The notes beneath the pieces are model-generated. The model made no database searches. It was given only the letters and a program-made list of their open reading frames with translations, and was not told the DNA's origin. Positions 49,901-60,453 of a DNA stretch of 64,000 nucleotides are shown here, one piece after another. A program made the translations under genes and the position numbers. The stretch is from Onishia taeanensis (lineage in GTDB: Bacteria > Pseudomonadota > Gammaproteobacteria > Pseudomonadales > Halomonadaceae). Where the stretch lies: contig NZ_FNCI01000002.1 of the NCBI RefSeq assembly GCF_900100755.1, forward strand, positions 124,001 through 188,000. Reading direction: 5' to 3'. The stretch's first letter is position 1. Every line of letters starts with the position of its first letter.

Positions 49901-50779
49901 TCAGGCTGGCGCATATAGGGCGCGGGCCAGCGCCAGCGCCGCCTGGCCGAAGGCTACATCGAGCCAGGCATCGTCCTTTGCTGCCCGATGGCTCAGGGCC
50001 GCGAGCAGCGTGGCGGCCGGGCTCGTCAGCCGATCATCGCCCAGGGCGACCAGCCGGTCCAGTGACTGGCGGGCCTCGTCCTTGAAACGGCTGTCTTGGC
50101 TGTCGGCCAGGGCGTCCAGCGCCAGGATGGCGCGCTCGAAGAGCGCCGCCGGATCGTCACCGGCCTCTGGCAGTGGCCACTGGCCTTCGCCCAGGGCTGC
50201 GCCGCGGGCCGCCTTGCTGGCCGTAGCGGGGCGCAGCGGCACCGTGGCGGCAAGCTCTTCGGCCAGCGCCCAGAGCGTCTCAGGGTCGCCGCCCTTGAGT
50301 TCGAGTTCCAGTTCGCGAATCGTGGCCCGGCGTCCGCCCGCCTGGACCTCGCCATCATCCAGTGCCACCTCGATGCGCCCCTGCTCGACCTCGACCAGCC
50401 AGGTGCGGCGGGCGAAGTCGGTGGCGAAGCGTGGCGCCAGGGCGGCGAGCGTCTCATCGCCCAGGGCCTGCATGGGCGCCAGCGCCTTGAGGCCATCGAG
50501 GTCCAGCCGGTTCTCGTCGATCGGCCATTCCCATTCGCCGCGCACCGACAGGCCACCCTGGCCGCTGCCGGTGGTCTTCAGGGTCTGCACTCGCCCCGTG
50601 CCGGTATCGCGTATGCGCAGCGCCACCCGCGCCGCTTCCAGGGCGCCATCCGGGGTGTCGTAGTAGGTGTTGGCAAGCGTACGGTCTGCGGCGGGGAGCG
50701 CCGCCAGACGCGGGTGACGGCGCAGTTGCTCGGGGCCTTCTGGCGCTAGCGCGAGCTTGAGTTCGATTTCCTGGCTCAT
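49901..50779 (-). CDS. CYTH-domain triphosphatase (YgiF-like, without full CHAD domain)
   Basis: A 292-aa protein with the CYTH tunnel-fold start EIELKLAL, then TYYDTPDGALEAARVALRIRDTG, QTLKTTG and a later ELELELKGGDPETLW and ASKAARG, as in inorganic triphosphatases such as E. coli YgiF. YgiF (433 aa) carries a C-terminal CHAD domain; here only about 90 residues follow the CYTH domain, so CHAD is missing or reduced. Its substrate is probably inorganic triphosphate. It is divergent from the PhoU-like/pit genes, a fitting polyphosphate or phosphate context. Confidence 0.85.
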   Translation of the reverse strand: MSQEIELKLALAPEGPEQLRRHPRLAALPAADRTLANTYYDTPDGALEAARVALRIRDTGTGRVQTLKTTGSGQGGLSVRGEWEWPIDENRLDLDGLKALAPMQALGDETLAALAPRFATDFARRTWLVEVEQGRIEVALDDGEVQAGGRRATIRELELELKGGDPETLWALAEELAATVPLRPATASKAARGAALGEGQWPLPEAGDDPAALFERAILALDALADSQDSRFKDEARQSLDRLVALGDDRLTSPAATLLAALSHRAAKDDAWLDVAFGQAALALARALYAPA

Positions 50780-50796
50780 GGCCGATGCTTCCTAGA

Positions 50797-50825
50797 ATGA
50801 CAAATTGGTGAATTCTTTATGACGT
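50797..50825 (-). promoter_or_regulatory. Possible Pho box over the phoU-like/pit promoter
   Basis: On the minus strand three 7-mers in 11-bp register read TTGTCAT, AATTCAC and ACGTCAT, against CTGTCAT. The last covers the -35 element of the phoU-like/pit promoter. The middle half-site is weak. Confidence 0.4.
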
Positions 50826-50847
50826 GAGTCGGTGCCACCACTATAAT
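50819..50847 (+). promoter_or_regulatory. Sigma-70 promoter of the phoU-like/pit operon
   Basis: ATGACG (50819-50824), a 17-bp spacer, then a perfect TATAAT (50842-50847). Transcription would begin near 50854, leaving a leader of about 30 nt before ATG 50884. Confidence 0.75.
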
Positions 50848-50883
50848 GTCGGCGCCATTTCCAACGCGAATCGCTTACCTATC

Positions 50884-51564
50884 ATGGTGACATCTAATCC
50901 GTTTTCGGCGATCTTCGGTCGCTCGCCCTTTCAGCCGCTGCTTTTGCATATCGTCAAAGTCAGCGAGTGCGCCGACGAGCTGCTGCCCTTCTTCGAGTCC
51001 ACCCTTAGCGGTGACTGGGCGGCGGCAGAACGCCACCGTGGCGCTATCACGCGCATCGAGCACGAGGCCGATGAACTCAAGACCGAGCTGCGTCTGAACC
51101 TGCCTAATACCATGTTCCTGCCGGTCTCTCGCTCAGACCTGCTGGATCTGGTCAGCGTGCAGGACAAGATCGCCAACAAGGCCCGCGATATCACCGGCAT
51201 CATGCTTGGCCGGCAGATGCAGGTGCCCGAGTCGCTGGCGCCGACCATGCGCGACTACCTGAGGACCTCGGTCGCCGCCGTGTCCCAGGCCCGCAAGGCC
51301 CTCGGCGAGCTCAAGGATCTGCTTGAATCAGGATTCGGCAGCAACGTCGCCGATGTCATGCAGAACCTGATTCGTGAGCTCCACGTCCTCGAGCATCAGG
51401 CCGACGACCAGCAGGTGGCCATTCGTCGCCAGCTGTTTCAACTCGAGAATTCGCTGCCGCCGGTCGACGTGATCTTCCTCTACAAGATCATCGATTGGGT
51501 CGGTGAACTCTCCGACGGTGCCGAGCGCGTAGGCAGCCGCCTGCAGGTGCTGACCGCTCGCTGA
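50884..51564 (+). CDS. PhoU-like DUF47 protein (TIGR00153 family)
   Basis: Helical-bundle protein that is the usual companion of Pit transporters and probably regulates phosphate uptake or binds metal at the membrane. I start at ATG 50884, just downstream of the promoter, giving 226 aa; a GTG start at 50824 would lie inside the promoter. Family features are NPFSAIFGRSPFQPL, AITRIEHEADELKTELR, FLPVSRSDLLDLVSVQDKIANKARD and ELHVLEHQADDQQ, the two E-X3-D-like metal-site segments of PhoU domains. pitA follows 119 nt later. Confidence 0.92.
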   Translation: MVTSNPFSAIFGRSPFQPLLLHIVKVSECADELLPFFESTLSGDWAAAERHRGAITRIEHEADELKTELRLNLPNTMFLPVSRSDLLDLVSVQDKIANKARDITGIMLGRQMQVPESLAPTMRDYLRTSVAAVSQARKALGELKDLLESGFGSNVADVMQNLIRELHVLEHQADDQQVAIRRQLFQLENSLPPVDVIFLYKIIDWVGELSDGAERVGSRLQVLTAR

Positions 51565-51683
51565 TTCTCCCTCGAACCCCCGCTTCCACGTCCAGGTGAG
51601 TGCCATCTTACGCACTCGCCAAGGATTGGCGCATCGAGGCGTGTCATGGCGGGTCTTCAGTCATCCCTAAGGATGTAGCTTTT

Positions 51684-52949
51684 ATGTCGATCATTGCGCA
51701 ACACGGCGACATCTTCATTATTCTGGCCTGTGTATTCGGCTTCTTCATGGCCTGGGGCGTTGGGGCCAATGACGTGGCCAACGCCATGGGCACGTCGGTG
51801 GGCTCAAGGGCCATCACCATCAAACAGGCGATCTTCATCGCCGTGATCTTCGAATTCCTGGGCGCTTGGCTCGCCGGTGGCCAGGTCACCGAAACCATCC
51901 GCAAGGGCATCATCGACCCGGCACTGCTCGAGAGCGATCCGCAACTGCTGGTCTACGGCATGCTGGCCTCCTTGCTGGCCGCCGGTACCTGGCTGCTGGT
52001 GGCCTCGATGCGCGGCTGGCCGGTGTCGACCACGCATTCCATCGTCGGCGCCATCGTCGGCTTCGCGATGGCAGGCCTCGGTCTGGAGGCGGTCGGCTGG
52101 GCCAAGGTCGGCCAGATCGCCGCTAGCTGGGTGGTCTCGCCGCTGATGTCGGGCTCGATCGCCTTCATGCTGTTCAAGTCCGTGCAGCACCTGATCTTCG
52201 AAAACCGCGATCCTTTCGCCGCCGCCAAGCGTTACGTGCCGATGTATGTGTTCCTGGTCGGCTTTATCGTCGCCATGGTGACGCTGACCAAGGGGCTCAA
52301 GCACGTCGGCCTCGATCTCAGTTTTGGCGTCAGCCTTGCCTACGCGGTGTTGATCGGCCTTGCGGTGATGGCGCTCGGCGGCGTGCTCGAGCGTCGCATC
52401 AGCCGTAACCGCACGGAGGATGATGCCTTCGGCTTCGGCGGCGTGGAGCGAGTGTTCGCCGTGCTGATGCTGTTCACCGCCTGTGCCATGGCCTTCGCTC
52501 ACGGTTCCAACGACGTCGCTAACGCCGTTGGCCCGCTGGCCGCCGTCATCAGCGTGGTCTATAGCCACGGTGATGTTGGCGGGGCTTCGCTGGTGCCCTG
52601 GTGGGTGCTGGTGCTGGGCGGCGGCGGCATCGTGGTCGGCCTGGTCACCTACGGCCACAAGGTCATCGCCACCGTCGGCACCGGCATCACCGAGCTGACG
52701 CCGAGCCGCGGCTTTGCCGCCACCCTGGCCGCCGCTACCACCGTGGTGCTGGCCTCGGGGACCGGCTTGCCGATCTCGACCACTCATACCCTGGTCGGGG
52801 CGGTGCTCGGCGTAGGTCTGGCGCGCGGCATGGCAGCGCTCAACCTGCGCGTGATCGGCACCATCGTCATGTCCTGGCTGATCACTCTGCCGGCCGGTGC
52901 CTTCCTGGCGATCATGTTCTTCTTCATGTTCAAGGGCATGTTCGGCTAA
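51684..52949 (+). CDS. pitA: Low-affinity inorganic phosphate transporter (Pit family)
   Basis: Proton- or sodium-coupled uptake of phosphate, probably as a metal-phosphate complex. I start at ATG 51684 after AAGGA, giving 421 aa. Both inverted-repeat signature motifs are present: FMAWGVGANDVANAMGTSVGS near residue 16 and AFAHGSNDVANAVGPLAAV near 273. VSTTHSIVGAIVG and ISTTHTLVGAVLG are the second pair. It has ten or so helices. The operon ends at a strong terminator. Confidence 0.94.
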   Translation: MSIIAQHGDIFIILACVFGFFMAWGVGANDVANAMGTSVGSRAITIKQAIFIAVIFEFLGAWLAGGQVTETIRKGIIDPALLESDPQLLVYGMLASLLAAGTWLLVASMRGWPVSTTHSIVGAIVGFAMAGLGLEAVGWAKVGQIAASWVVSPLMSGSIAFMLFKSVQHLIFENRDPFAAAKRYVPMYVFLVGFIVAMVTLTKGLKHVGLDLSFGVSLAYAVLIGLAVMALGGVLERRISRNRTEDDAFGFGGVERVFAVLMLFTACAMAFAHGSNDVANAVGPLAAVISVVYSHGDVGGASLVPWWVLVLGGGGIVVGLVTYGHKVIATVGTGITELTPSRGFAATLAAATTVVLASGTGLPISTTHTLVGAVLGVGLARGMAALNLRVIGTIVMSWLITLPAGAFLAIMFFFMFKGMFG

Positions 52950-53014
52950 GCGCAGTAATTTGCTGCTTCGCGCGACGCAAATGCCTCGCGCTTAGCGCGC
53001 TTGCCAGTCGTCAT

Positions 53015-53047
53015 AAGGCGGCACCGTGAGGCGGTGCCGCCTTTTTT
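53015..53047 (+). terminator. Rho-independent terminator after pitA
   Basis: AAGGCGGCACCG pairs with CGGTGCCGCCTT (12 bp) over TGAGG, running into TTTTTT. It lies 66 nt after the pitA stop. Confidence 0.95.
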
Positions 53048-53117
53048 CACCTTTGATATAGTCGTGGTTGGTGGGCTCGCTGCCCGATTTCACCCTCTAG
53101 CTGCCGGAGTGCGGCCC

Positions 53118-54431
53118 TTGAATACGCGCTTTCCCTTCGTCGATTGGTTTCGTCAGTCATCGCCCTACATCAATGCTCACCGAGGACGAACCTTCGTGGT
53201 GCTGATCGAGGGCGAGGCGATGGCGGCGGGTCATAGCGAGTCGCTGATTCAGGACCTGGCGCTACTGCATACCTTGGGTGTGCGGCTGGTGCTGGTGTTT
53301 GGCATTCGCCCCCAGGTCAATGCGGCGCTGGTCGAGGAAGGCATCACGCCGCGACTCGAGGAGGGCCGTTGGGTGGCGGATGACGCCATCATGGCGAGGG
53401 TCGAGCGCATCGCCGCCGAGCAGCGGCTGTGGTTCGAGGCCCGGCTGTCGCTGGGGCTGCCCAACACGCCCTTGCACGGCATCGAGCTGACGGCGGTTTC
53501 CGGCAACCTAGTGATGGCCAAGCCGCTGGGTGTGCGCAACGGGCTGGACTTCGCCCGCAGTGGCGAGGTGAGGCGGGTGCGCGCCGATGCAGTCGATGCG
53601 CTGCTCAAGCAGGGCTCGCTGGTGGTGTTACCGCCGCTTGGGTTCTCGAGTACCGGCGAGGTGTTCGACCTGGACGCCGCCGAAGTCGCCCAGCAGGCCG
53701 CGGTGGCGCTGGGCGCCGATAAACTGGTGCTGCTTGGCGATGCCGAAGGCCTGCATGACGCAAGCGGCGCCCTGCAGCGCCAGTTGACGCCGGCCGAGGC
53801 CGAGCCGCTGATGCAAGAGGCGGCGCCCGGCAGCGAGCTTGCTCGCCATCTGGCAGCGGCCTGTGCCGCGGCACGTCATGGTGTGGCCCGCACGCACCTG
53901 CTTTCCTGGCATGACAGCGACGCGCTGCTAGGCGAGCTGTTCACCCGCGACGGCGTGGGCACCATGATCACGCAGCATCGCTACGAGCAGCTGCGCGATG
54001 CCGAGCTAGGCGACGTCGGCGGCTTGCTCGAGCTGCTCGAACCCTTGGAGCGGCGCGGCATGCTGGTGCCGCGTTCCCGGGAGCGCCTGGAGCACGAGAT
54101 CGAGGACTATCTGGTCATCGAGCGCGACGGCATGATCATCGGCTGTGCTGCCCTGCATGAATATGCGGATGCCCAGATGGGCGAGCTGGCCTGCGTGGCC
54201 GTGCATGGCGATTATCGTGGCGGCAATCGCGGCGAGCGGCTCTTGGCCGACGTCGAACGTCGCGCCCGGCGCCGTGGGCTTTCGGCGATGTTCGCGCTGA
54301 CCACCCATACCGCCCACTGGTTTATCGAAAAGGGCTTCGGGCTCGCCGATATCCACGACCTGCCGCCGCTCAAGCGCGATGCCTATAACCATGCCCGCAA
54401 GTCGAAGATCCTGCTCAAACCCTTGAGTTGA
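53118..54431 (+). CDS. argA: N-acetylglutamate synthase
   Basis: First step of arginine synthesis: acetyl-CoA plus glutamate to N-acetylglutamate. The likely start is TTG 53118, with GGAG eight bases before; likeness to E. coli ArgA (443 aa) begins at FVDWFRQSSPYINAHRGRTFVV. The 437-aa protein has an N-terminal amino-acid-kinase domain (HTLGVRLVLVFGIRPQVNAAL, GNLVMAKPLGVRNGLDF) that normally binds arginine for feedback inhibition. A C-terminal GNAT domain (about 290-430) carries IIGCAALH, MGELACVAVHGDYRGGNRGERLL and HWFIEKGF. Confidence 0.94.
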   Translation: MNTRFPFVDWFRQSSPYINAHRGRTFVVLIEGEAMAAGHSESLIQDLALLHTLGVRLVLVFGIRPQVNAALVEEGITPRLEEGRWVADDAIMARVERIAAEQRLWFEARLSLGLPNTPLHGIELTAVSGNLVMAKPLGVRNGLDFARSGEVRRVRADAVDALLKQGSLVVLPPLGFSSTGEVFDLDAAEVAQQAAVALGADKLVLLGDAEGLHDASGALQRQLTPAEAEPLMQEAAPGSELARHLAAACAAARHGVARTHLLSWHDSDALLGELFTRDGVGTMITQHRYEQLRDAELGDVGGLLELLEPLERRGMLVPRSRERLEHEIEDYLVIERDGMIIGCAALHEYADAQMGELACVAVHGDYRGGNRGERLLADVERRARRRGLSAMFALTTHTAHWFIEKGFGLADIHDLPPLKRDAYNHARKSKILLKPLS

Positions 54432-54436
54432 TGACC

Positions 54437-54463
54437 GGCGGCGTGCCCTGCGGGGTCGCCGCC
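54437..54463 (+). terminator. Hairpin just after argA, possible terminator
   Basis: GGCGGCG pairs with CGCCGCC, with an inner CCC/GGG pairing, 6 nt after the argA stop. There is no T-run, so termination is uncertain. Confidence 0.45.
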
Positions 54464-54602
54464 CGCTTGCCTGGTGGATTAGCCTTTCGCCACGCCTGCC
54501 TCCTGCATGAGTGATGCGCTGGGAGTCTGCCGCTAGAGCCCTTTGGGAGCGTCCGTCGCGAAGCCCGTTGCGAGAGTCCGTGGTACGGGCTTGCAGCGCG
54601 AG

Positions 54603-54716
54603 TGTCGCCGCCAGCGACACCGGATTCGGCGGATGTCGCCAAAATAATACATTTTAAGTATTTGATTTATCGGTTATTTTTATTTTTCTGTGATATGGCG
54701 TCGCCAATTGGAGACG
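54603..54716. promoter_or_regulatory. Three candidate GlrR-binding dyads
   Basis: TGTC-N9-GACA (54603-54619), TGTC-N10-TACA (54634-54651) and CGTC-N10-GACG (54699-54716). The known GlrR site upstream of enterobacterial glmY is TGTC-N10-GACA. Spacing upstream of the sigma-54 promoter suits an enhancer-binding activator, and the glrR gene is 3 kb away. Confidence 0.5.
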
Positions 54717-54770
54717 GATGTGGCCGGCCATGAGTGCATTTTCGCCCCTTATGAGCGTCCCTGGCCAAGT

Positions 54771-54786
54771 TGGCACAGGTGTGGCG
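54771..54786 (+). promoter_or_regulatory. Second sigma-54-like promoter match
   Basis: TGGCACA-N4-TGGCG keeps GG and GC at the required 10-bp separation but departs from the TTGCW -12 element more than the downstream match does. It may be a decoy or an upstream start. Confidence 0.35.
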
Positions 54787-54824
54787 TTTTTAAGTCATTG
54801 AAAATAAAAGAGTATCAAGTTTTT

Positions 54825-54840
54825 TGGCACGCTCCTCGCA
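54825..54840 (+). promoter_or_regulatory. Sigma-54 promoter of the putative sRNA
   Basis: TGGCACG-CTCC-TCGCA against the consensus TGGCACG-N4-TTGCW: one mismatch, with the invariant GG (54826-54827) and GC (54838-54839) exactly 10 bp apart. Transcription would start near 54851-54852. Confidence 0.65.
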
Positions 54841-54851
54841 ATATGTAAATC

Positions 54852-55300
54852 GAGCAAGCAAGGGATTCGGTTCATCACGGCTCGAACCGTTTCCTGGCCG
54901 GCCTGTCAGGGCGCATTTACTACCCTGTGCATGTCACCCGATCGGGTCGGCCCGCGTCTGCTCCACGCGATGTGTGATTGATGTAGCGATGAGACGGGTA
55001 CCGCCGACAGGCATGGAATGGTACCGCTACGGGCAAGGATGCTCTTGGCAAGGATGCCTCGCCCCCTCGGGGGCTGAATCCGGCGGCGACGCAGTAAGCG
55101 GCGCTGCCACCTGAACGAAGAGGGGATGCGTCCTCACACAAGATGGTCAGCTTCTGGCGAGTGACGATACCGTCTTGTGACTTCGGGGCTTAGGCCCAGA
55201 AAGAATGTCGACCAGTCCGCCCAGACGCGTCTGCTCCCCCGACATTGTTTCACCTGAAGTTCCCTGCGTATTGGGCCGGCTATGCCGGCCCTCTTTTTTT
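54852..55300 (+). ncRNA. Putative GlrR/sigma-54-dependent small RNA, GlmY-like position
   Basis: A promoter-to-terminator unit of about 450 nt with no credible reading frame. Internal pairings include CGGTTC/GAACCG (54868-54889), CAGGG/CCCTG (54907-54927), GGTACC with GGTACC (54997-55025) and GCCCCC/GGGGGC (55061-55074) before the terminator. In enterobacteria glmY occupies exactly this place, upstream of glrK-qseG-glrR, and is driven by sigma-54 and GlrR. I see no clear sequence likeness to E. coli GlmY (about 184 nt), so homology is not claimed. The transcript ends are inferred. Confidence 0.45.
55273..55300 (+). terminator. Strong terminator with no protein gene upstream
   Basis: GGGCCGGC pairs with GCCGGCCC over TAT, followed by TCTTTTTTT. 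The nearest upstream coding gene, argA, ends 840 bases before, so this terminator most likely ends a non-coding transcript. Confidence 0.92.
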
Positions 55301-55507
55301 GCCTATGACTTTTGCGCCTACGACTTTTCGCATACGACTTGGCGTGGCTCAGCATGACCAGGTCGCGACCATGCCCAAGGTCTGGTTCATTTGTCCGACC
55401 GGCTTCGGTGTGCCGTGAAAGGTCGCGGTCGTTCCCGGCAACTCTGGTATCCTGCAGTGGTAAGCCCCATGACATCGTCCCAACTCCTTCTGCAAAGAAC
55501 TCTTGTC

Positions 55508-57028
55508 ATGACCACTCAGGTCTCGCGCCGTTGGCGCCCCCGTTCCCTGCTGCAGCTCGTACTGCTGGCCTTTCTAGTGGTAATGCTGCCGCTGGGCATC
55601 TTGATGTTTCAGGCCGGCCAGGCGCTCTCCGAACTGACCCGGCTCGCCGACGACAGCGCGCGCCAGGCGGTCGAAGAAACCCGCCGTGCTCGGGCCCTGT
55701 CGTCGCTCGCCGTGGAGATGGAGCGCAGTGCCCGCCAGTATGCGGTGCTCGAGGAGCCCGGCCTGCGCGAAATCTATACGCAGCGAGCCGACGAATTCGA
55801 GGCCATGCTGGCCAGGCAGCAATTGTTGTTGCCCGATAATGCCGACGCCCGGGCACTGGCCAGCCGCATCGATAGCCTCAAGACCCTGCTCGATGCCCCG
55901 GTAGAAGACATTCAGACCCGGCTCGATGAGTTCGTGCCCTTCGCTCAGCGCACCGAGGCCGTGCGTCAGGCGACCAACCGGCACATCGACGCCCGCATCG
56001 AGCGTATTCGCGAACAAGCCGGCGGCGTCCAGACTCGCCTATGGGTGCAGACCACGGCACTGGTCTCGGCGAGTCTGTTGCTGATGCTGCTGTTTACCTG
56101 GTTGATCATTCGCCCGATTCGCCAGCTCGAGCGGCGCATTCTGAGCCTGGGTAGCGCCGATCAGCCTGCGCCGTCGAAGGGGCTTCAAGGGCCGGCGGAA
56201 CTGGTGCAGCTCGACGAGCGACTCGACTGGTTGTCGGCTCGGCTGGGCGAGCTGGAGGCTCAGAAACGCCAGTTCCTGCGCCACATGTCCCATGAACTCA
56301 AGACCCCGCTGGCAAGCGTCAGGGAAGGCACGGCACTGCTGTCCGACGAGGTGGCCGGCGAGCTGACCACACGTCAGCACGAGATCCTCGAGTTGATTGA
56401 GGCCAGCGGTGAAGAGCTCCAGCGCCTCATCGAGCAGCTACTCGACTACAATTTGCTTCAGCACCACGCCGAAATCAGCGTCGATCGTTTCGATGTCACC
56501 GCGCTGATCAGGGAACTGCTGGCCAAGCATCAATTGGCCCTGGACGCCAAGGGCATGCAGGTGAACTGGCGCGACCGGCCGCTGGACTGGCAAGCCGATC
56601 GTACCGCCACCGGGCGCATCCTCGATAATCTCTTGTCCAACGCCATTGCCTATGGCGAGGACGGCGGGCTGCTCGAGCTGCGCGCCCAGCAGCGTGGCGA
56701 CCTGCTACTGCTGGAAGTGGCCAACAGCGGCGATGAGATTGGCGCTGAAGACCGCAAGCAGGTCTTCGACCCCTTCTATCAGGGACGCGCCCGACGCAAA
56801 GGGCCGCTCAAGGGATCGGGAATCGGCCTATCGGTGGCCGCCGACTGTGCCAAGGCCCAACAGGGTCATCTGGAGCTGGTCGACGACGCTCGCCTGGCGG
56901 TGTGTTTTCGCCTGACCTTGCCCTGGCAGGCCTGTAGTGTGCAGAGCGAACATCAGCAGGATACGAATACGATAATGATGCCGTCGCCGCAGCATCGTGC
57001 GGCAGACGCAGACGCAAGGAACTCATGA
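55508..57028 (+). CDS. glrK: Sensor histidine kinase GlrK (QseE)
   Basis: Membrane sensor that phosphorylates GlrR; the system controls cell-envelope and amino-sugar functions. I start at ATG 55508, where likeness to E. coli GlrK begins (RRWRPRSLLQLVLLAFLVVMLPLG), giving 506 aa. Order: helix 1 (about 14-34), periplasmic part with LAVEMERSARQYAVLEEP, helix 2 (about 180-200), HAMP-like region. The H-box is FLRHMSHELKTPLASVREGT with His262, and ATPase motifs are DNLLSNAIAYGE, VFDPFYQGRARRKGPLKGSGIGLSVAADC. It is co-directional with qseG, 3 nt away. Confidence 0.95.
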   Translation: MTTQVSRRWRPRSLLQLVLLAFLVVMLPLGILMFQAGQALSELTRLADDSARQAVEETRRARALSSLAVEMERSARQYAVLEEPGLREIYTQRADEFEAMLARQQLLLPDNADARALASRIDSLKTLLDAPVEDIQTRLDEFVPFAQRTEAVRQATNRHIDARIERIREQAGGVQTRLWVQTTALVSASLLLMLLFTWLIIRPIRQLERRILSLGSADQPAPSKGLQGPAELVQLDERLDWLSARLGELEAQKRQFLRHMSHELKTPLASVREGTALLSDEVAGELTTRQHEILELIEASGEELQRLIEQLLDYNLLQHHAEISVDRFDVTALIRELLAKHQLALDAKGMQVNWRDRPLDWQADRTATGRILDNLLSNAIAYGEDGGLLELRAQQRGDLLLLEVANSGDEIGAEDRKQVFDPFYQGRARRKGPLKGSGIGLSVAADCAKAQQGHLELVDDARLAVCFRLTLPWQACSVQSEHQQDTNTIMMPSPQHRAADADARNS

Positions 57029-57031
57029 CTC

Positions 57032-57589
57032 ATGCTGTACCGCACCCTGACGGGGCTGGTCGCCGTTTCGCTGCTGGCAGGATGCCAGTGGCTGCCGGCG
57101 CAAACGTCCTCCACGCCACCGACGCTGACGGAGCTGCCCTCCGGCTGTCAGGAAGAGTGGCCTAGCCTGACCGTGAACGCCTGCCAGACCGAGGCCTGGG
57201 TGGCCTTCGGGCTCGCCTCTCAACGCGGCGATCGTGACTGGCGTGACCGCCAACTGGCGCGCCTCGATGGCGACGATACCCAGGAGCGGCTGGTCCGCGC
57301 CGTGGTGCTGTCCTGGGGCACCGAGAGCGAATGGAACAAGGCCTCTGAACTCTACAAGGCCGACTTGGAAAAGGCGCCCGAGGAGTTGCAGCCGCTGCTG
57401 CGCTACTGGCTCAACGAGCTCGAAGGCCGCCGTGCCCTGTCGGCCAAGCTGGCCGAGCAACGTCAGTCGCGCCAGGCGCTGACCGAACAAAACGCCGCTC
57501 AGGCCGAGCAGCTGGAGGAGATGGCCCACAAGCTCGAGGCCCTGAGCGATATCGAGCAAAGCATCAACCTGCGACAGCAGGCCCCCTGA
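57032..57589 (+). CDS. qseG: QseG-like outer-membrane lipoprotein
   Basis: A 185-aa lipoprotein: signal MLYRTLTGLVAVSLLAGC with the lipobox cysteine at residue 18, no Asp at +2, so outer-membrane sorting is expected. The C-terminal third is a predicted coiled coil (about 135-180, rich in Glu, Gln, Leu). In E. coli QseG binds and activates the kinase encoded next to it, passing envelope signals. The gene lies between kinase and regulator exactly as in enterobacteria (glrK-qseG-glrR), which supports the call as sequence conservation is modest. Confidence 0.9.
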   Translation: MLYRTLTGLVAVSLLAGCQWLPAQTSSTPPTLTELPSGCQEEWPSLTVNACQTEAWVAFGLASQRGDRDWRDRQLARLDGDDTQERLVRAVVLSWGTESEWNKASELYKADLEKAPEELQPLLRYWLNELEGRRALSAKLAEQRQSRQALTEQNAAQAEQLEEMAHKLEALSDIEQSINLRQQAP

Positions 57590-57643
57590 GGCGCGATGCG
57601 CCGGGCGCCTGGCAAGCTTTGTCTGAATAGAAGGGAGATCACC

Positions 57644-59038
57644 GTGAAAGACGCCGCGCAATTGACCGGCGCCCTCAAGGGCAACAAATCCAGCGCCCAT
57701 ATCTTGCTGGTCGACGACGACGCCAGCCTGCTAAGGCTTCTGGGCATGCGGCTTGAAAGCCGTGGCTTTCACGTTACCACCGCCGACAGCGGCCGCATGG
57801 CGCTGGATCGCCTGGCCATCGAACGCCCGGACCTGGTGCTGTCGGATCTGCGCATGGACGAGATGGACGGCCTGGCGCTGTTTCAGGAAATCCAGCGCCA
57901 GGCCCCGGGCCTGCCGGTAATCATCCTCACTGCCCATGGCTCGATCCCCGATGCGGTGAGCGCCACCCGCCAGGGCGTGTTCAGCTTCCTGACCAAGCCC
58001 GTCGACCGCGACGAACTGTTCACGGCGATCGACGAGGCGCTGCTTCAGGCGCCGGCCGCCAGCGACGGCGACGACGCCTGGCGGTCGGCGATCATCACCC
58101 GCAGCCCGCAGATGGAGCGTATTCTCGACCAGGCCCGCATGGTGGCCGGTGCCGATGTCAGCGTGCTGGTCAGTGGCCCCTCGGGCTCCGGCAAGGAGCT
58201 GCTGGCGCGTGCGCTGCATGATGCCAGCCCGCGCGCCGACAAGCCGTTCGTCGCCATCAACTGCGGCGCGCTGCCCGAACAACTGCTGGAAAGCGAGCTG
58301 TTCGGCCACGCCAGGGGCGCGTTTACCGGCGCGATCAGCCAGCATGAAGGGCTCTTCCAGGCCGCCGATGGTGGCAGCCTGTTCCTCGATGAAATCGGCG
58401 ACATGCCGCTTTCCCTACAGGTGAAACTGCTGCGCGTACTGCAGGAGCGCCAGGTGCGGCCGCTGGGCTCGACCACCTCGGTGCCGGTCGATGTACGCAT
58501 CATCTCGGCCACGCACCGCGACCTGGACCGCGCCATGCATGAGGGCGACTTCCGGGAGGATCTGTACTATCGCCTCAACGTGGTTAACCTGCGCCTGCCG
58601 CCGCTCAAGGAGCGCGCCGAGGACGTGCCGCTGCTGGCCAAGCACCTGGTCAGCCAGGCCGCCGCCCGCCACAAGCCCTTCGTCAAAGGCTTCTCCACCG
58701 AGGCGCTAAACCTGCTGGCGTCTTCGTCCTGGCCCGGCAACGTGCGTCAGTTGGTCAACGTGGTCGAGCAGTGCGTGGCGCTGACCAGCGCGCCGATCAT
58801 CCCCGAAGCGCTGGTCGCCCAGGCGCTGGTGGCCGAGGAGAATGCGTTGCCGTCGTTCAATGACGCCCGTGCGAGCTTCGAACGGGGCTATCTGATCAAG
58901 GTGTTGAAGATCACCGAAGGCAACGTCACCCAGGCCGCACGCATTGCCGGGCGCAACCGCACCGACTTCTACAAGCTCCTGGGGCGCCACGAACTCGAAC
59001 CCAGCAGCTTCAAGGCCGTGGCCAAGAGTGACAGCTAG
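57644..59038 (+). CDS. glrR: Sigma-54-dependent response regulator GlrR (QseF)
   Basis: NtrC-type activator, 464 aa from GTG 57644 behind AAGGGAG; the open frame extends 16 codons upstream without likeness. The receiver domain has Asp68 in LVLSDLRMDEMDG. The AAA+ domain has Walker A SGPSGSGKEL, the sigma-54 contact loop GAFTGA, GGSLFLDEIGDMP, and ATHRDL. The C-terminal Fis-type helix-turn-helix has GNVTQAARIAGRNRTDFYKLL. The protein is close to E. coli GlrR throughout. Intact GAFTGA means it can act at the sigma-54 promoter upstream of glrK. Its end overlaps the convergent xseA by 4 nt. Confidence 0.96.
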   Translation: MKDAAQLTGALKGNKSSAHILLVDDDASLLRLLGMRLESRGFHVTTADSGRMALDRLAIERPDLVLSDLRMDEMDGLALFQEIQRQAPGLPVIILTAHGSIPDAVSATRQGVFSFLTKPVDRDELFTAIDEALLQAPAASDGDDAWRSAIITRSPQMERILDQARMVAGADVSVLVSGPSGSGKELLARALHDASPRADKPFVAINCGALPEQLLESELFGHARGAFTGAISQHEGLFQAADGGSLFLDEIGDMPLSLQVKLLRVLQERQVRPLGSTTSVPVDVRIISATHRDLDRAMHEGDFREDLYYRLNVVNLRLPPLKERAEDVPLLAKHLVSQAAARHKPFVKGFSTEALNLLASSSWPGNVRQLVNVVEQCVALTSAPIIPEALVAQALVAEENALPSFNDARASFERGYLIKVLKITEGNVTQAARIAGRNRTDFYKLLGRHELEPSSFKAVAKSDS

Positions 59039-60453
59039 TCGGCCTCGTTCTGGCGCTGTGGATCTTTGGCCTGATCCTTGGCTTGAGTGGCTGCCTGGTC
59101 CGGGGCCGGCGCCGACTTGAAGCGCCGCTTCACTTCCACCTTGAGCCTGCCTTCGCCCAGCCGGGCGGTCAGTTGCTGACCGGGCTGGGTATCCTGACTG
59201 CGCCGGATCACCCGGCCCTCATCATCGGCTAGAATCGAGTAGCCGCGCCCGAGCACGGCCAGCGGGCTGACCGCCTGCAGTTCCCGGACCAGCGACGACA
59301 GCCGCTGGCGATGTTCGGCGAGCTGGCGGGGCAGGGCCGCCATGAGCCGGTTGTCGGCCTGAGCGAGGCGCTGGCGAGCGCTATCCAACTGCTGGCGCGG
59401 GTCGAAGGCCTTCAGGCGGGCGCCGGCGTGTCGCTGGCGGGTGCGGGCTTCCACAAGCCGTGACTGCATGGCGCGCTGTAGGCGTCCTTCGAGCTGGCCA
59501 AGATGCGCGCGCTGCTGGGCGAGCCGCTCACCGGGATGACGCAGCCGGGCGCGCAGGTGATCCAGGCGCTGGGTCTCGGCGTCCAGCCGGCTGCGCTGGG
59601 CGCGGGCGAGGCGGGAAAGGGCGCTGTCGAGCCGCTGGCGCAGGGCCGTCTGGTCTGGCACCAGCCGTTCCGCCGCCGCCGAAGGCGTCGGTGACCGAGC
59701 ATCGGCGGCGAAGTCTGAAAGCGTGACGTCGGTTTCGTGGCCCACCGCCGAGAGCACCGGCAGCCGCGAATGGAAGATCGCCCGGGCCAGATGCTCGTCG
59801 TTGAAGGCCCAGAGGTCTTCGAGGCTGCCGCCGCCGCGCGTCACCAGAATGGCGTCACGCTCAGGGTCGAAGCGTGCGTCGCGGTTAGCCAGCGCCAGCG
59901 CCCGAATCATCGCCGGCGCCGCCTCCTTGCCCTGTACCGGCACCGGCAGCACGCTGACCCGGGAAAGCGGCCAGCGAGCGGCAAGCACCGCCAAGACATC
60001 GCGGATCGCCGCGCCGGTCGGTGAGGTCAGCACCAGCAGGTGTCGCGGCGGACAGGGCAGCGGGCGTGCATTGGCAAACACTCCCTCGGCGCCGAGCTGA
60101 TGCTTCAAGCGCTCGAAGGCCGCCAGCAGGTCGCCCTGGCCGGTCGGCTGTACCGCCTCGACGATCATCTGATAGTCGCCCCGGGGCTCGAAGATCGACA
60201 CCTTGCCGCGCAGGCGTACCCGATCACCGTCGTTCAGCGGGCTGCCCACGAAGCGCGCGCGATTGCGAAACAGCGCGCACTTCAGCTGGGCGCGCTCGTC
60301 CTTCAAGGTGAAATAGACGTGTCCCGAGGCCGGCCGCGCCACCCCGGAAAGCTCACCCTCGACCCAGCAGTCGCCGAAGTCGCGCTCCAGCATCAGCCGG
60401 GCGCGGCGGTTGAGTTCGCTGACGGAAAGGGGCGGGGTATCGGCCTGTGGCAT
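59035..60453 (-). CDS. xseA: Exodeoxyribonuclease VII large subunit
   Basis: Catalytic subunit of the single-strand exonuclease that works with XseB. The 472-aa protein starts with an OB-fold (LSVSELNRRARLMLERDFGDCWVEGELSGVARPASGHVYFTLKDE). The core is LLVLTSPTGAAIRDVL, VLPVPVQG, TRGGGSLEDLWAFNDEHLARAI and LPVLSAVGHETDVTLSDFAADARSPTPSAAAE, all typical. A coiled coil and GRGYSILAD-like C-terminal element follow, then a 40-residue Lys/Gln/Asp-rich tail. xseB is not nearby. Confidence 0.96.
   Translation of the reverse strand: MPQADTPPLSVSELNRRARLMLERDFGDCWVEGELSGVARPASGHVYFTLKDERAQLKCALFRNRARFVGSPLNDGDRVRLRGKVSIFEPRGDYQMIVEAVQPTGQGDLLAAFERLKHQLGAEGVFANARPLPCPPRHLLVLTSPTGAAIRDVLAVLAARWPLSRVSVLPVPVQGKEAAPAMIRALALANRDARFDPERDAILVTRGGGSLEDLWAFNDEHLARAIFHSRLPVLSAVGHETDVTLSDFAADARSPTPSAAAERLVPDQTALRQRLDSALSRLARAQRSRLDAETQRLDHLRARLRHPGERLAQQRAHLGQLEGRLQRAMQSRLVEARTRQRHAGARLKAFDPRQQLDSARQRLAQADNRLMAALPRQLAEHRQRLSSLVRELQAVSPLAVLGRGYSILADDEGRVIRRSQDTQPGQQLTARLGEGRLKVEVKRRFKSAPAPDQAATQAKDQAKDPQRQNEAD

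Follow-up and report, generated by a model that had tools for sequence, protein, structure and literature searches.

A putative sigma-54/GlrR-controlled small RNA in the glmY position of Halomonadaceae, with an invariant 3' seed complementary to the flhD leader

What occupies the space directly upstream of glrK-qseG-glrR outside the enterobacteria, in which the GlmY RNA of this position has been described? The question is raised by a window of 64,000 nucleotides (nt) from Onishia taeanensis, a member of the Halomonadaceae (contig NZ_FNCI01000002.1, positions 124,001 to 188,000). In this window a gap of about 1.1 kb, extending from the end of argA at 54431 to the inferred ATG of glrK at 55508, contains no likely protein gene, as a first-pass annotation of the sequence had stated. 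That annotation had placed in the gap a sigma-54/GlrR-type gene for a non-coding RNA, which was taken for either an analogue of GlmY or a different small RNA (sRNA) under the same control. Comparison of genomes gives good support to the proposal that a gene of this type occupies the glmY position, and the stretch next to glrK very probably makes a small regulatory RNA. This RNA apparently represents a new family rather than GlmY, and complementarity between its invariant 3' seed and the flhD leader is conserved at the sequence level. Four features were missed by the first reading: this seed, hairpins of the CsrA type, flhD as the apparent target, and additional copies of the RNA.

The evidence for a transcription unit comes mainly from related genomes. 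A search with positions 54600-55320 gave matches in 25 of 58 genomes, own genome counted, and the alignment spans promoter through terminator in two other genera (G026 and G011). For further comparison 67 loci were used, comprising 60 fetched argA-glrK regions and seven same-genus loci, that of the own genome among them. A -24/-12 box scoring at least 0.86 of the maximum is followed by a terminator in 66 of these loci, from 17 Halomonadaceae genus groups; the sole exception, L075, has neither the gap nor a promoter-terminator unit. The predicted transcripts are 152-568 nt long, the shortest being that of L073 (∼152 nt). The candidate gene has a GlmY-type placement directly upstream of glrK-qseG-glrR, in which glrK and qseG are named by position. 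Conservation does not extend across the whole gap; best kept are the promoter, a segment at approximately 54955-55060 and the segment 55250-55300. Across members the conserved core has lengths from 73 to 78 nt, a variation that breaks any reading frame. Folding of positions 54850-55302 gives a z-score of -2.6, better than 99 of 100 shuffled sequences. The gap shows no excess of terminator-like sites (one, against 1.7 in shuffles), and it is the conservation of the predicted terminator across loci that makes it more than a chance occurrence.

The 3' end of the RNA follows the presence of GlrR. A GlrR protein at E ≤1e-120 is found in 90 of 121 family genomes, and the exact 3' end in 87 of 131. 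It is present in 79 of the 90 GlrR-positive genomes but in none of the 31 GlrR-negative ones, 11 of which were assigned as the remainder of the 121 genomes. Eleven GlrR-positive genomes do not have the exact 3' end: G078, three from group g8 and seven from g15. In those g8 and g15 loci that were fetched the seed is retained, with another terminator stem. Within the order, AGTTCCCTGCGTA followed by a T-run occurs in 13 of 390 genomes, all 13 in the own family. In the named collection, among the matches listed, 60 of the 80 loci that could be classified by title are from Halomonadaceae, all 60 with the T-run; no T-run is present in the other 20, which resemble chance matches. These 80 belong to a set of at least 119 loci, the remaining 39 of which gave 29 matches with a T-run and 11 without. 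One strain of H. elongata (L206 in this collection) has the 3' end.

The assignment of the predicted gene to the sigma-54/GlrR type is well supported by the enrichment of sites, by their preferred distances and by the co-occurrence with GlrR. The sequence TGGCACGCTCCTCGCA is the sole match in the window to the pattern TGGCACGNNNNTYGCW at no more than one mismatch, and has none. Since shuffling of the whole window yields 2.16 such matches, the promoter is not decisive in one sequence alone. A box scoring at least 0.86 is present in all 66 gaps, against 8.2% of shuffled gaps, and one scoring 0.94 in 52 of 66, against 0.5% of shuffles; among several high-scoring boxes the promoter was picked by hand in nine loci (L049, L050, L052, L053, L054, L068, L070, L086 and L090). 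For GlrR, TGTC-N10-GACA has been published as the consensus, and also the form TGT-N12-ACA, of which E. coli glmY has three sites (PMC8745638 and PMC6075780, each in excerpt). Upstream of the 66 promoters, 29 exact TGTC-N(7-12)-GACA sites occur in 23 loci, against 0.8 in dinucleotide shuffles, and 21 of the 29 have the N10 spacing. With up to one mismatch allowed there are 181 sites, against 22.9 in shuffles, and 60 of the 66 loci have at least one. Sites with N9-11 spacing and up to one mismatch cluster near -180 (24 sites), -115 (22) and -215 (11) from the box; none is found at L049, L056 and L061. The promoter, the upstream dyads and the terminator of the first-pass annotation are accordingly all found in relatives. 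Of the three dyads that it had named in the window, one is exact and one has a single mismatch, while the third is weak (two mismatches). The GacA/UvrY-type box, TGTAAG-N6-CTTACA, is absent at the promoter; its only match in the window at up to two mismatches lies at 57754. GlrR itself belongs to the NCBIfam equivalog NF011695 (812.6 bits; cut-off 763), and the intact GAFTGA loop ascribed to it earlier is visible in its translation.

The seed AGUUCCCUGCGUA, located just upstream of the terminator, is the only part of the RNA that is exact in all 66 units. The lead to flhD was the position of the exact 10-mer CGCAGGGAAC before the start of an flhD gene and of a T2SSF/PilC-like gene; its frequency is uninformative, because with six occurrences in the own genome it is no commoner than its reversed control (ten). 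An flhD gene was located in 28 of 30 carrier genomes and then in 18 of a further 30 genomes (14 of 25 non-carriers and four of five carriers). In this way 32 leaders from carriers (15 genus groups) could be compared with 14 from non-carriers (13 genomes, three groups); the non-carriers gave 15 matches, of which a weak one (L534) was left out. The longest run complementary to the seed has a mean length of 9.4 nt in the carriers, compared with 4.7 nt in the non-carriers. At the ribosome-binding site of flhD, the motif CGCAGGG is present in 23 of 32 carrier leaders but in none of the 14 from non-carriers (Fisher p = 3e-6), and it is absent from all 66 glrK and 22 glmS leaders. The shorter GCAGGG is found in 26 of 32 carrier flhD leaders, compared with none of 14 non-carrier, none of 66 glrK and one of 22 glmS leaders. 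Among the carrier leaders 27 have CAGGG, and in these only the columns of approximately ACGCAGGGA are conserved, those upstream being at ∼0.3-0.5. In most leaders the site starts 13-22 nt before the flhD start codon, a position from which repression is the expected outcome. In a tree of FlhD proteins (∼100 residues, with no support values seen), non-carriers of g11 fall inside carrier groups, which would mean joint loss; the tree is not relied on. A search for FlhC gave no match (0/37).

The body of the RNA contains a set of hairpins with GGA motifs. Two alignments were used, A1 with 47 of 65 loci and A2 with 47 of 66, from which near-duplicates and members that are hard to align were left out, so that the covariation counts apply to alignable members. 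A1 omits the two g8 loci together with five of g15, and in several of these at least one GGA site is missing; A2 omits the g7 loci, L054, L055, L060 and L073. In the GGA module of the 47 aligned members the predicted pairs form in 96.9% of cells, and two-sided changes are seen in ten of 16 pairs (on average 2.9 in shuffles), whereas versions of the module slid along the alignment show pairing in 31-44% of cells and zero to five pairs of this kind. RNAalifold predicts nearly the same helices. For the long-range pairing together with the terminator, six of 13 pairs change on both sides, against 3.3 in shuffles. Of the three CANGGA sites, in which A and GGA are kept in 46-47 of 47 members while N varies, sites 2 and 3 are presented as ANGGAN hexaloops and site 1 in an internal loop; the stem of site 3 never varies and is uninformative on covariation. 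ANGGAN is the RsmE/CsrA motif (excerpt of PMC7652899). The mean number of CANGGA motifs per RNA is 3.0, compared with 0.57 in shuffles of the 66 transcripts, and 61 of 66 have at least two; the window transcript has one GGA in a loop, against 0.23 in shuffles. One csrA gene, with a canonical sequence, was found in the genome (G000:C20:123339-123494), ∼0.5 kb upstream of the window start. From motif and structure, the CANGGA hairpins probably bind CsrA.

Thirteen of 131 genomes have two occurrences of the exact 3' end: these stand in tandem in two members of g9, while in 11 genomes the second is located elsewhere. The g9 gaps (L049 and L050) contain two tandem promoter-seed-terminator units, the second of ∼210 nt with a different 5' part and the same 3' end. 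The 11 dispersed copies (L121-L124, L126, L127, L129, L130 and L132-L134) lie at least 25 kb from the copy at glrK or on another contig, and a sigma-54-like box (score ≥0.85) precedes the end of their seed by 97-277 nt. Seven of them have a one-mismatch GlrR-like site upstream, several of these sites being near -180 and -115, as counted without a shuffle control. In nine of the 11 a GGA is predicted in a hairpin loop, with four such loops in L129; L126, L132 and the two second units of g9 have none. An aldo/keto-reductase-like open reading frame (ORF), named by eye, lies near L121, L130 and L133, and a similar downstream ORF near L122-L124 and L126; these recurring flanking ORFs suggest a second syntenic locus. 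One genome has a third copy, with a different terminator hairpin (G019:C2:974130-974169). A match to the conserved core at G024:C18:78649-78735 (L131) has no exact seed in the fetched stretch.

Sites similar to that of flhD precede other genes. The pattern ACGCAGGGA-N(3-13)-ATG has 114 matches in 15 genomes, against 38 for the reversed control and 40 for a scramble that keeps AGGGA. Three of the 114 are the sRNA itself and one is double; scanning of the remaining 110 gave 59 ORFs with a minimum length of 60 codons, and the 40 control matches gave 24. Pfam scans covered 43 of the 59 ORFs and ten of the 24 controls, the other controls being judged by eye. By our own reading, 19 of the 59 ORFs following a site can be classed under motility, pilus, cyclic di-GMP (c-di-GMP) or biofilm functions, compared with none or one of the 24 controls (Fisher p = 0.0005, or 0.004 if one control counts; without flhD, p = 0.002). 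These 19 are four FlhD, two FlgE, one FlgG-like, one MCP-like, three T2SSF/PilC-like, a secretin, a pilus N-domain, an Flp pilin, three GGDEF proteins, a CsgG and a transglutaminase-like protease; the T2SSF and secretin ORFs could belong to type II secretion instead. Two radC-like genes (L378 and L397), the former in the window's own genome, also have the seed complement before their start.

These observations are best explained, and in our judgement likely so, by a trans-acting sRNA that is induced by GlrR and sigma-54, represses flhD by pairing through its 3' seed, and probably binds CsrA with its body. Sigma-54 polymerase would transcribe the gap as an RNA of ∼450 nt in the window, with GlrR activating from the TGTC-N10-GACA sites and, presumably, an IHF bend between these sites and the promoter. 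The seed would then pair with the CGCAGGG(A) ribosome-binding region of the flhD mRNA and block its translation, so that flagellar synthesis would be lowered while GlrK/GlrR is active, and the motility, pilus and c-di-GMP genes with similar sites would be possible further targets. The CANGGA hairpins would bind a CsrA dimer, by which CsrA may be either titrated or recruited to the complex. Since CsrA stabilises the flhDC mRNA in E. coli (excerpt of PMC7652899), the seed arm and the CsrA arm would reinforce each other. The parts of this explanation that we infer are transcription, repression as the sense of the effect on flhD, CsrA binding and any need for Hfq. A wider proposal is made tentatively, as a real possibility about which we have considerable doubt: GlrK/GlrR may act as a motile-to-sessile switch in Halomonadaceae by means of a sigma-54 sRNA family with one seed. 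Each RNA would strike at flagellar synthesis in two ways, the seed blocking flhD (and flgE, pilus and c-di-GMP genes) and the ANGGAN hairpins withholding CsrA, and the glmY position would accommodate unrelated RNAs across bacterial families, governed by a single conserved regulator.

Several observations weigh against this explanation. The RNA gene is predicted from sequence comparison. In the window's own genome the flhD leader matches only CGCAGGGG (8 nt, including one G-U pair; shuffle p = 0.04), with a duplex energy that is reached by 11 of 50 shuffles, and only 15 of 28 leaders have a duplex energy reached by at most one of 50. Nine of the 32 carrier leaders have no CGCAGGG, four being G-U variants (g9, g20 twice and g1) and five lacking the site (g13, g8, g7 and g15 twice). 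The 46 leaders are not independent, and the 14 negatives come from three genus groups. In predicted folds the seed is only moderately open, with a mean unpaired probability of 0.46 compared with 0.36 overall in 23 transcripts, and of 0.34 compared with 0.36 in that of the window. L073 and L076 have no CANGGA and L055, L057 and L090 have one each, and plain GGA is not enriched (five in the window transcript, against 8.9 in shuffles). As to the further targets, the enrichment falls to p = 0.018 when collapsed to families, or 0.08 if one control counts, and rests on one scrambled control only; the functional classes were chosen after the list of 59 ORFs was seen, and in seven of the 59, including the GGDEF protein at L433 and the secretin at L449, no stop codon lies upstream in the fetched stretch, so that the site may be inside a gene.

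That the RNA is instead an orthologue or functional analogue of GlmY, a decoy that would bind RapZ and spare a GlmZ-like activator of glmS, is improbable. Gene position, promoter type and upstream sites are as at E. coli glmY (PMC6075780, in excerpt), the second copies in some genomes recall the GlmY/GlmZ pair, and L073 has an RNA of only ∼152 nt. However, the covariance model of GlmY (RF00128) detects the E. coli control but none of 38 relatives, own genome included, and on this ground an identification as GlmY was rejected. No Rfam family is matched at gathering score in window positions 50000-60000. Likewise CGCAGGG is found in none of the 22 glmS leaders, and GCAGGG in one, the seed being the only part compared with glmS; runs of 7 nt seen at glmS fall within the beginning of the coding sequence, and the counts are therefore those for leaders. 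Because of the missing RF00128 matches and the absence of CGCAGGG from the glmS leaders, a different sRNA under the same control is preferred to an analogue of GlmY, the other alternative of the first-pass annotation. Weaker Rfam candidates were also rejected: the best, suhB/mmgR at the terminator, has E = 0.11 and 21 bits against 41 needed, and seven related loci gave sub-threshold matches only, among them RsmY on L129 (E = 0.17, 22.1 against 57 bits) at ∼400 nt from the copy at that locus. Another sub-threshold match, to the phage antisense sar RNA (E = 0.0043), was seen at L129:808-866. No earlier record of the RNA was found among the open-access papers listed on Halomonas, Halomonadaceae and Chromohalobacter, as judged by titles and the beginnings of abstracts.

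The abundance of CANGGA, its presentation in hairpins with covarying stems at two of three sites, the canonical CsrA of the genome and the four GGA loops of the L129 copy would also suit an RNA that is mainly a CsrA-titrating sponge of the CsrB/RsmZ kind, with the 3' element serving stability or protein binding and the flhD match secondary. We regard this as unlikely. The long form shows no enrichment of plain GGA, the Csr/Rsm sponges known so far have more sites, and the seed is present, with no CANGGA or GGA sites, in L073, in L076 and in short copies, for example L132; it is the seed alone that is exact in all 66 units, and it matches flhD. A leader or attenuator of the glrK-qseG-glrR operon, with no separate RNA, could be thought of as the unit is immediately upstream, with its end 200 nt from glrK, and glmY-qseEGF is reported as one operon in Proteus mirabilis (accessible part of PMC8745638). 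The strong conserved terminator, the match of the seed to a gene located elsewhere, and the 11 dispersed copies, which share the 3' end and have a sigma-54-like box, make this very improbable. A short protein gene, for which some members offer open frames of 96-115 codons, is hardly conceivable in view of the indels not divisible by three in the conserved core and the covarying hairpins. The sRNA with an flhD-directed seed and probable CsrA-binding hairpins is consequently retained as the preferred explanation. The features of the locus and the neighbouring genes are listed in Table 1, in which the name qseG is presumed from gene order.

Table 1. Predicted elements of the argA-glrK gap and adjacent genes (window coordinates)
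Feature	Position	Strand	Remarks
Invariant 3' seed AGUUCCCUGCGUA (13-mer)	55258..55270	+	Exact in 66/66 units; complementary to flhD leader
Predicted sRNA, ∼450 nt	54851..55300	+	Start inferred from -12 element
Sigma-54 -24/-12 box TGGCACG-N4-TCGCA (TGGCACGCTCCTCGCA)	54825..54840	+	Pattern match and conservation
Intrinsic terminator GGGCCGGC-TAT-GCCGGCCC-T-run	55273..55300	+	8 G-C pairs and T-run
GlrR-type upstream site 1, TGTC-N9-GACA	54603..54619	+	Exact; centre -214 from -24 box
GlrR-type upstream site 2, TGTC-N10-TACA	54634..54651	+	1 mismatch; centre -182
Weak third dyad, CGTC-N10-GACG	54699..54716	+	2 mismatches; near -115 cluster, fails 1-mismatch cut
A/T-rich stretch between upstream sites and promoter	54640..54690	+	Possible IHF site, inferred
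Hairpin GGTACC-GCC/GGC-CATGGA-GGTACC, CANGGA site 1	54997..55025	+	Covarying; CA and middle G 47/47, other G and A 46/47
Hairpin GGGC-AAGGAT-GCTC, CsrA/RsmE-type ANGGAN loop (site 2)	55031..55044	+	All 4 pairs change on both sides; A, GGA 47/47
Hairpin GGC-AAGGAT-GCC, CsrA/RsmE-type ANGGAN loop (site 3)	55047..55058	+	Stem invariant; CA, GGA 47/47
Long-range pairing, 5' side, CCUGG type	55153..55157	+	3/6 pairs change on both sides
Long-range pairing, 3' side, CCAGG type	55221..55225	+	Partner of 55153..55157
argA (N-acetylglutamate synthase)	53001..54431	+	Upstream boundary of gap
glrK-like sensor histidine kinase	55508..57028	+	HisKA, HATPase_c; named by position
qseG-position ORF	57032..57589	+	No family match
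glrR, sigma-54 activator	57596..59038	+	GAFTGA visible in translation

The predicted RNA combines properties of several known systems. It contains approximately three ANGGAN-type sites and is placed under sigma-54 control, without a GacA-type promoter box and without an Rfam match at gathering score in the stretch of the window searched; in these respects it differs from CsrB/CsrC and RsmX/Y/Z, which share with it the ANGGAN loops recognised by CsrA-family proteins (PMC7652899, in excerpt). A parallel to the proposed mode of action is McaS of E. coli, for which base-pairing, including to flhD, combined with CsrA binding has been proposed (excerpts of PMC3634460 and PMC7652899). McaS, which is controlled by CRP, has an activating effect on flhDC, as it opens the structure of the leader (PMC3634460, as excerpted), whereas the Halomonadaceae RNA appears to be controlled by sigma-54/GlrR and would pair over the ribosome-binding region, for which reason repression is expected. 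The analysis suggests an sRNA uniting base-pairing and CsrA binding.

ArcZ, OmrA/OmrB and OxyS, which lower flhDC in E. coli, have other promoters, sizes and seeds and are encoded away from the glrK locus. Similar to what is predicted here, the region of flhD with which ArcZ and OmrA/OmrB pair lies upstream of the Shine-Dalgarno sequence and partly overlaps it (accessible part of PMC3634460). In Proteus mirabilis the same two-component system, as QseEF, is connected through an sRNA, GlmY, with motility and swarming; in that species GlmY is an activator of cheA, and flhDC is lowered when GlmY is lost (PMC8745638, in excerpt), whereas in Halomonadaceae direct pairing with the ribosome-binding region of flhD is predicted. 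The 13-nt seed tracks a matching site at flhD, and both are absent where the regulator is absent, which provides a directly testable target and a candidate function for GlrR in this family.

Compared with GlmY (RF00128), the RNA has an invariant 3' seed and CANGGA hairpins, no match to the covariance model, and flhD as its apparent target, with no CGCAGGG at glmS; it is usually two to three times longer. It resembles the enterobacterial GlmY in its location upstream of glrK-qseG-glrR, its sigma-54 box and its sites of the TGTC-N10-GACA type (excerpts of PMC8745638 and PMC6075780). With the same regulator, promoter type and gene order, and an RNA that does not match the GlmY model and apparently has another role, the slot that joins regulator and sRNA may be conserved while the RNA occupying it is not.

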